Source: Candidatus Nitrospira nitrificans (GTDB taxonomy: Bacteria; Nitrospirota; Nitrospiria; Nitrospirales; Nitrospiraceae). Taken from it: a stretch of DNA of 64,000 nucleotides. Position numbers and translations under genes: made by a program. A model generated the notes under the pieces. The model was not told the DNA's origin. It saw only the letters and a program-made list of their open reading frames with translations, and searched no databases. The DNA is taken from NCBI RefSeq assembly GCF_001458775.1, contig NZ_CZPZ01000013.1, positions 1 to 64,000 of the forward strand, given 5' to 3'. Of this stretch, positions 25,442 through 27,834 are shown piece after piece; within the stretch, counting starts at the first letter, position 1; the number at the start of each line of letters is the position of its first letter.

Positions 25442-26218
25442 ATGCCCATCGTCAAACTGACCCTCGAATATGACGGCACGGCCTACGCCGGCTGGCAACG
25501 TCAGCCCGATCAGCCGACGATTCAAGAAGCCGTCGAAGCGGCCATCACAGGCGTCACTCAGATCAACGCCCCGGTCATCGGGGCCGGACGCACCGATGCG
25601 GGAGTGCACGCGCTTGGACAGGTGGCGAGTTTCCGTATCGACCGCGACATGACGCCGCGAGGATGGACAAGGGCGCTGAACGCCCATCTCCCAAAGAGTA
25701 TCGTGGTGCGATCAGTCGCGCTCATGCCGGACACATTCCACGCGAGACATTCGGCCAAGGGCAAACTGTATGAATACCGTATTCTGAACCGCCCGGAACG
25801 TCCGGCGGTTGAGCGTGACTACTGCTGGCATATCCATCAACCGCTCGACGACGCGGCGATGAATCTTGCGGGGCTGGCGCTGATCGGCTCGCACGATTTT
25901 TCTTCGTTCCAGACACAACCCACCGACAACGACGATCCCGTCTGCCATCTCCAACGATTCATGGTCTTCCGAGAAAGCGATCGGCTGCGAATCGAAGCCT
26001 ATGCCGACCGGTTCCTGAAACAGATGATCCGCTCCATCGTCGGAACACTCGTGGAGGTTGGCCTGAACAAACGCGCCCCTGACAGCCTGAAGACGATCCT
26101 GCATGCCCGCAACCGTTCCGCCGCCGGAAAGACGGCTCCTCCGCAAGGACTGTTTTTAGTGCGCGTCGATTACGATGGAGCCATCACAAACATGGAGGGT
26201 CAAAAATTGCCGGCCTGA
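25442..26218 (+). CDS. truA: tRNA pseudouridine(38-40) synthase
   Basis: Makes pseudouridine at positions 38-40 of the tRNA anticodon arm; 258 aa. Seen: [15 protein letters not shown] at the start, the catalytic Asp in [33 protein letters not shown] and [20 protein letters not shown] 25442 gives the family start ([12 protein letters not shown]). The 3' end overlaps the convergent PEP mutase gene by 19 bases. Confidence 0.95.
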
Positions 26219-27834
26219 ACCACATCATCGAGGCTATTGATATCGAGCCAATGCCCCACCGTGTAAACTACGCGAATCGGGAGATTTCGCTTGAGCAAGT
26301 CCTGCAACAGCTGAGGGATGCCGGCTTTCCGATTGGCGGGATCAGCCATCATCGCCGCGAGAATGGCCTGCAACTGACCGGCTCCGGCGGCGGAGACTTT
26401 GAGAAAACCCATCCAGACTCCATGGGTGCTTTCCCTGGGCACCGTATTGCCTAATTGCTTGAGATAGATCCTGGCATTGAAGGCTTTCTTCGAATTCGGC
26501 AAGGAACATTCCGCAAAGCCGCCCAGGCGCGCATAACTGCTTTGGTTCTGCCAATCGCTGTCCACGAAGATCACGAAGTCCTCTTTCTCCCGGCAGAGCG
26601 CCTCAGGGATGTACGTATTGAACAGCACGTCGCCGTAGGAAATGATCAGATCTTTGGCCTGGCCCTTCTGTGCGCGCAGGGCTTTATGCAGCGAGTCGAG
26701 CTCGCCGGTGTCGGCAAAGTCATCGTTGTCGAGATAGGTCAGGTTCGGCAGCGTCACCGCCTCCTTCTTATAACCACGGACGACCGTGATATCCTTGATC
26801 CCCACGGCATTATAGGCGTCCACGATGTGGGCAAGAATCGGCGTCCCCTGTATTTTCACCATCGTCTTGGGCTGGTGTTCCGTCAGTTCCCGGAGTTCTT
26901 CGCCACGAGAGGCGGCCAATACGATAGCGCGGGTGTTTTCGGCGCCTCTGGGAAGATAACGATCTTCGGCATCTTGCAGTTCTGCGGCATTTTGTAGGCG
27001 GAAGATTTCAGAAACCGGCGCGACCTTGTCTTCGATGGAGAGCAGGTGCTCCTGCTCCTTTAATGTCCGCGCGGTTTTCTGCATCGCGGTCACGGCGGAT
27101 CGCAGCATATGGTTCGCCCAAATCACCATCGCAAATCCATGCTGCCGAAACACATCGGTCGGCGTGGCGTAATATTTGGTCGGAACGATCACAACGGGAC
27201 ATCGGTTTCCCCATTCCTGCTTGAACGCTAGGATCTCATCCGGCACCGACAAGGCGCTATGAATGAGGATGCCGTCCGCGCCTGCCTGACGATACGCCTC
27301 GGCTCGGCGGAGAGCTTCCGCCAATCCCCACCCGCAAATGAAGGCTTCCACTCTCGCGATAATGCAAAAGTCAGGATCGGTTTGAGCATCTTTCCCGGCT
27401 TTGATCTTGCCGCAAAACTCTTGCATGTCCGCCATGGGCTGAGCGTCCCCCTTGATGAAACTATTCGTCTTGGGGAACAGCTTGTCTTCGATGCAAACCG
27501 CCGCAATGCGACGCTGCTCAAGCTTGCGGACCAGACGCTGCATGTTATTGAAGTTGCCGTATCCCGTATCACCGTCGAGAAGAATGGGAATCGTGGCCGC
27601 ATCGGACATGAATTCCAGATTCTCCAGAACTTGAGTCCAGCTGGCTTCGTTGTTGTCACGGACACCGAATTGGGCCGAGATAGACAGGCCGCTGGCCCAA
27701 ATGCCTCGAAAGCCGGCTTCTTGAACGATCTTCGCGCTGAGACCGTTATGCGCTTCGCAGATGAATTCCAACTGCTCCGACAAGAGGAGCTTCCTAAATT
27801 GGCTCGATGATGTGAGGGGTGGTGTAGAACTCAT
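26200..27834 (-). CDS. Phosphoenolpyruvate mutase fused to a nucleotidyltransferase
   Basis: Fusion of 544 aa. The N-terminal part (about 10-290) is a PEP mutase, which rearranges PEP to phosphonopyruvate, the entry step to phosphonates. Seen: [12 protein letters not shown] and the mutase signature [10 protein letters not shown] (EDK 116-118, N124, S125), which separates mutases from isocitrate lyase relatives. The C-terminal part (about 300-544) is a sugar-phosphate type nucleotidyltransferase ([23 protein letters not shown], in pieces; SYGDVLFN), as in proteins that make CMP-activated phosphonates. The ATG at 27834 follows AGGAGA. No phosphonopyruvate decarboxylase or aminotransferase lies nearby, so the product is unknown. 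Confidence 0.9.

Follow-up and report, generated by a model that had tools for sequence, protein, structure and literature searches.

Fusions of a PEP mutase (Ppm) with a domain of the PF12804 family are already known as aepX (Rice et al. 2019, PMC6697681) and, in the parts of that paper drawn on here, are counted as cases of nucleotidyl activation, with the assays given there confined to enzymes that are not fused to Ppm. The same parts use EDKXXXXXNS as a filter for mutases and present PntC of T. denticola as a proven AEP cytidylyltransferase, in which the substitutions R15A and K153A each leave <10% of activity (PMC6697681). In a lichen Nostoc, a group of pepM, ppd, AEPT, NTPT, CDP-alcohol phosphatidyltransferase and hpnL genes has been termed a phosphonolipid cluster (PMC5987646). 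We found an equivalent gene set, including the mutase fusion and with its members linked, in Burkholderia, Mycetohabitans, Cupriavidus and Roseomonas.

Here we describe a gene for such a fusion in a stretch of 64,000 nucleotides from Candidatus Nitrospira nitrificans (contig NZ_CZPZ01000013.1, positions 1 to 64,000; hereafter the window). The gene is likely, in our judgement, to supply the mutase of an AEP pathway whose other genes form an operon on contig C22, the unlinked enzyme (type A) having replaced a lost mutase of a divergent kind (type B). This reading rests on gene content, conservation, an empty slot, mutual exclusivity and residue loss. The coordinates of the features concerned are collected in Table 1.

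Table 1. Features of the window gene, the C22 operon and the type B mutase loci; positions without an L number are those of the window
Feature	Position	Strand	Basis
aepX/pepM, type A: PEP mutase and NTP-transferase-like fusion, 544 aa	26200..27834	-	ORF and domain matches
PEP mutase domain, aa 13-283	26986..27798	-	TIGR02320, Foldseek, dN/dS
Mutase motif [10 protein letters not shown], aa 116-125	27460..27489	-	read directly
C-terminal NTP-transferase-like domain, aa 300-544, probably no AEP cytidylyltransferase	26203..26937	-	PF12804, hhalign, residue loss, dN/dS
Altered signature [11 protein letters not shown], aa 306-323; Glu313 for the GxG(T/S)R arginine, Lys323 kept	26866..26919	-	alignment
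Overlapping convergent 3' ends of pepM and truA, 19 bp	26200..26218	.	ORF ends
ppdA	L094 8536-9066	operon strand	profile
ppdB	L094, start in 4-base ATGA overlap with ppdA	operon strand	profile
AEP aminotransferase	L094 9805-10887	operon strand	profile
PntC-like nucleotidyltransferase	L094 10884-11603, ATGA overlap with AEPT	operon strand	profile, nearest structure
CDP-alcohol phosphotransferase with extra N-terminal domain	L094 11691-13127	operon strand	motif, fold
HpnL/LPG-synthase-TM membrane protein (flippase)	L094 13152-14162	operon strand	profile
Type B loci	L116:10840-12516; also L117-L125, L165-L175

The pepM reading frame begins with an ATG at 27834, with AGGAG ahead of it, and stands alone, outside any operon, between the convergent truA and a PsiF-repeat gene (PF07769), neighbours that the initial annotation had named correctly. 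Named relatives with 90-94% identity in their proteins place the genome in Nitrospira. Searches of the window genome found a single PepM and no further phosphonate genes on the window contig. The initial description of a mutase lacking its usual partners thus holds for this contig, but not for the genome, where the partners lie in the C22 operon. One loose pattern scan yielded no shared Pho-box in the pepM-psiF gap, and phage PepM fusions gave no full-length match in our search.

The mutase half is well defined. Residues 13-283 score 389.4 bits against the TIGR02320 PEP_mutase model, over its curated cut-off of 319.55, and the protein falls below the cut-offs of both the phosphonopyruvate hydrolase model TIGR02321 (220.7 vs 374.4) and the prpB model (142 vs 354). 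The best solved relative is the Mytilus PEP mutase (1m1b, E 2e-128), and a Foldseek search with the fold model (pTM 0.61, the packing of the domains being uncertain) returned 66% identity over ~290 residues to 1s2u/1pym, with PEP mutase and its own superfamily only among the 50 matches listed. All the Mytilus active-site positions checked, which we take to be those that matter for activity, are present: W46, S48, D60, D87, D89, E116, K122, N124, S125, R161 and H192. The EDKXXXXXNS motif is intact, and is identical or near-identical in the listed type A relatives; dN/dS in the mutase half is ~0.03. At the level of sequence, these comparisons support a mutase, not a lyase or hydrolase, as the initial annotation had proposed from the motif.

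The C-terminal half presents a different picture. Residues 303-422 match PF12804 (NTP_transf_3), and the fused domain is homologous to the PntC-like enzyme of the operon (hhalign 99.7%). Our alignment comprised 26 stand-alone enzymes and 37 PepM-fused domains, of which 24 were of type A, 9 of type B and 4 proteobacterial. All 26 stand-alone enzymes have the signature arginine of the pyrophosphate site (Arg15 in T. denticola PntC), but 0/37 fused domains do; its place there is taken by Glu, Asp, Ala, Gln, Pro, Ser or Gly. To the extent that this divergent stretch can be aligned, all 37 have also lost the equivalents of Lys153 and of two Glu residues, and with them the AEP-contact residues, which the stand-alone enzyme of the operon retains. 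Equivalents of Lys25, Asp106, Asn78, Asp129 and Trp219 are kept in every aligned domain. Measured against the PntC signature GXG(T/S)R...PK, the window's fused domain has Glu313 in place of the arginine and has lost the Lys153 equivalent but kept that of Lys25; the operon enzyme carries the full signature, whose Arg and Lys are conserved in 26/26 stand-alone enzymes.

Given this loss of cytidylyltransfer residues and the presence of a complete stand-alone enzyme in the operon, the fused domain is probably not the activating enzyme, that is, probably not an AEP cytidylyltransferase. A dead domain was considered and rejected, since the domain has invariant residues and is under purifying selection (dN/dS 0.07-0.12, with synonymous sites near saturation in some pairs); a dN/dS of ~0.1 indicates that it has some function. 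Our guess is a role in ligand binding or in control of the mutase, perhaps by ligand sensing. The initial annotation had suggested a nucleotide-activated phosphonate made by the fused transferase, perhaps for surface decoration: an activated phosphonate destined for the cell envelope still appears likely, but its attribution to the fused domain is probably wrong.

Whole-genome profile searches located the phosphonate genes together on contig C22, all on one strand, among them a two-subunit decarboxylase and an AEP aminotransferase; the initial annotation had recommended a search for phosphonopyruvate decarboxylase, dehydrogenase or transaminase genes. The operon contains no mutase gene. Together with the window gene, they give the genome every member of the AEP/phosphonolipid set (mutase, decarboxylase, aminotransferase, cytidylyltransferase and CDP-alcohol transferase). 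The phosphonopyruvate decarboxylase model has a cut-off of 312.5 that is set for a single chain, and the two subunits, with 132 and 175 bits, each stay below it as separate chains. The split enzyme also stays below the sulfopyruvate decarboxylase cut-off, and PpdB scores 184 bits as sulfopyruvate decarboxylase beta vs 175 as phosphonopyruvate decarboxylase, so that the profile score cannot separate the two. Phosphonopyruvate is favoured as the substrate of PpdAB because ComA is absent and because of the operon context. A frameshifted ppd was rejected as an explanation of the split on account of the ATGA overlap and because the relatives that we examined from across the order share the split.

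The aminotransferase falls just below its own cut-off (349 vs 361). The nearest solved structure to the operon nucleotidyltransferase is that of T. denticola PntC (6PD1/6PD2, E 2e-27). The CDP-alcohol phosphotransferase carries the motif DG..AR..G..D..D, and its model matches IPCT-DIPPS (4mnd) over the whole length with a TMt of 0.79. Its N-terminal nucleotidyltransferase half, which has no Pfam match, is degenerate: a further nucleotidyltransferase relative in the pathway whose active site is altered. Two related short proteins (NDPKGF..IPWG; L094:7347-8475) have no Pfam match and are kept beside ppdA in the relatives examined. Searches of the genome with two models found no PhnJ (C-P lyase) and no phosphonatase over cut-off, and hence no hint that phosphonates are broken down by either route.

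The operon varies among relatives. The CDP-alcohol gene is missing from it in at least one genome (G007, L130). In a genome that is 100% complete (L135, G019:C8:210000-226000), ppdA-ppdB-AEPT and their flanks are kept, there is no PepM match, and PntC and the CDP-alcohol gene are not beside them; this locus may be a remnant of the pathway or be put to a different use. Two more genomes of genus g3 (G073 and G075) also lack PepM.

Among the matches listed, those type A genomes of the order sample that consist of a single contig have the mutase >200 kb away from the operon, and the connection of the two consequently has to be argued by other evidence. The chimeric-query search behind this statement lists best matches only, and no counts of operon-gene presence were drawn from it. 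Evidence for the connection comes from type B, which is ~35% identical overall to the window protein and carries the motif EDN(V)(Y/F)PKRCS, with Cys at the motif Asn position and Asn at the first motif Lys position, and a fused-domain signature AAGFEK.LLPL..PK. It retains the catalytic Asp, Glu, Lys, Arg and His positions of the mutase, scores between the mutase and hydrolase models, below both cut-offs, and is argued to be a mutase from its position beside the operon; the EDKXXXXXNS filter would discard it. In 13 of the 14 type B Nitrospiraceae examined the gene lies divergently beside ppdA, the 14th being at a contig end, and outside that family 0/7 type B loci examined adjoin the operon, some of them on short contigs. 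The best matches of type B among annotated plasmids are ~38% identical, and are to canonical fusions.

In the window genome there is no mutase in the slot that separates a pilZ gene from the hypothetical genes preceding ppdA, and the flanks of this slot have 75-85% DNA identity to those of G015, where a type B gene occupies the slot. The same flanks without type B occur in the type A relatives L126, L127 and L132 and, with less of the pilZ side, in other type A relatives; in L133, too, the slot is empty and its flanks conserved. A sampled set of 93 Nitrospirales genomes (completeness >=90%) comprised 61 with type A, 22 with type B as their sole mutase-like gene, 10 with neither, which may include assembly gaps, and none with both, where ~14 of the 93 would be expected to have both if the types were independent. 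In a tree of PpdB and AEPT, whose rows were picked so as to include type B genomes, well-supported branches force a minimum of 6 switches in mutase type, and the sister of the window's operon is one of type B. A sign test of A vs B on independent pairs was weak (median p 0.06). From the empty slot, the mutual exclusivity and the switches, the window gene is most likely an in-trans replacement mutase.

Two further arrangements also speak for the link. In G014, pntC is gone from the operon and adjoins pepM instead. A single-chain Ppd gene, which the window lacks, lies directly downstream of pepM in 28/80 type A relatives; the one tested (L137:4829-5986) scores 495 bits against TIGR03297, with a cut-off of 312.5. 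In G017, a single-chain Ppd beside pepM and a split PpdAB in the operon were both checked and both are present.

In the pathway that we propose, the window protein would convert PEP to phosphonopyruvate, which split PpdA/PpdB would decarboxylate to phosphonoacetaldehyde, pulling the unfavourable first step. The aminotransferase would then form AEP, the stand-alone PntC-like enzyme CMP-AEP, and the CDP-alcohol phosphotransferase would transfer AEP to a lipid or other alcohol, with export by the HpnL-like membrane protein. These activities, and the role of the fused domain, are predicted from sequence, and the lipid end product is suggested by family resemblance. The type B mutase beside ppdA would have been lost in the window lineage, and the unlinked type A enzyme would have taken over. 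A further proposal, which we regard as possible but somewhat doubtful, is that the fused domain may be a pseudo-enzyme that senses the downstream nucleotide-phosphonate or CTP to control the mutase, and that type B may be a second true PEP mutase lineage, missed by the EDKXXXXXNS filter and exchanged with the canonical mutase at least 6 times around one conserved operon.

Several other explanations deserve consideration. We think it unlikely that the fused transferase is active on the phosphonate produced by the mutase half, making the protein a self-contained activation unit. The PF12804 match, the purifying selection and the retention of Lys25, Asp106 and Asn78 equivalents in 37/37 fused domains would all fit such a unit, as would the activity of the Fom1 CyTase, a fused domain of another family (PMC6697681, in the parts drawn on here), but Arg15 is replaced in 37/37, the equivalents of Lys153 and both Glu are lost, T. 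denticola PntC is crippled by either of R15A and K153A, and the operon encodes a complete stand-alone PntC. Far less probable still is a reading in which the window protein hydrolyses phosphonopyruvate or acts as a C-C lyase of the isocitrate lyase superfamily: although it belongs to the same superfamily as such enzymes, it has EDKxxxxxNS including Asn124, it exceeds the cut-off of the mutase model and not those of the other two, and neither PhnJ nor a phosphonatase over cut-off was found in the genome.

There is also a small chance that the mutase feeds a separate pathway unrelated to the C22 operon, which itself might serve sulfonates. The slightly better score of PpdB as a sulfopyruvate decarboxylase, the distance between mutase and operon in single-contig type A genomes and the second Ppd beside the mutase in some relatives are all compatible with this. 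A sulfonate pathway was rejected, however, because the genome has no ComA phosphosulfolactate synthase, and the operon includes relatives of AEP aminotransferase and PntC; the empty slot and the lack of any genome, among the 93, that has both type A and the operon-linked type B also tie the two loci together. We therefore retain the reading of the window gene as the likely unlinked mutase of the C22 pathway.

This reading predicts AEP phosphonolipids in Nitrospira and its relatives, including nitrite-oxidising and comammox bacteria that live in soil, water and sewage works; we found no report of such lipids in these organisms in the literature. The case shows that a lone pepM is not necessarily an orphan, and the Nitrospirales would offer an example from nature in which one mutase substitutes for another. 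The practice of counting PepM-fused PF12804 domains as activating enzymes is also put in question.

The window protein resembles the aepX-type Ppm-PF12804 fusions of Burkholderia cenocepacia and Mycetohabitans in domain order, in mutase motif and in 52-55% identity over the whole protein, and their transferase signature likewise lacks the arginine; in contrast, aepX lies inside the AEP cluster in those organisms and is unlinked in Nitrospira. On a Roseomonas marmotae plasmid (L158), the linked AEP cluster adjoins hopanoid genes (shc, hpnH and ispH) and a polyprenyl synthetase, which suggests a terpenoid as the phosphonate acceptor there. The gene set of the Nostoc/Burkholderia phosphonolipid cluster (PMC5987646) is shared by Nitrospira, although in the latter the decarboxylase consists of two genes, the mutase lies outside and the CDP-alcohol enzyme carries a degenerate NTPT domain at its N terminus. 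That enzyme shares its fold and domain order with the Archaeoglobus IPCT-DIPPS (4mnd), but at 19% identity and with an N-terminal half that no Pfam family matches. The operon NTPT keeps the catalytic residues of T. denticola PntC (6PD1/6PD2) but, unlike it, is not fused to AEPT, and it is the PepM-fused domain of the window that has lost those residues.
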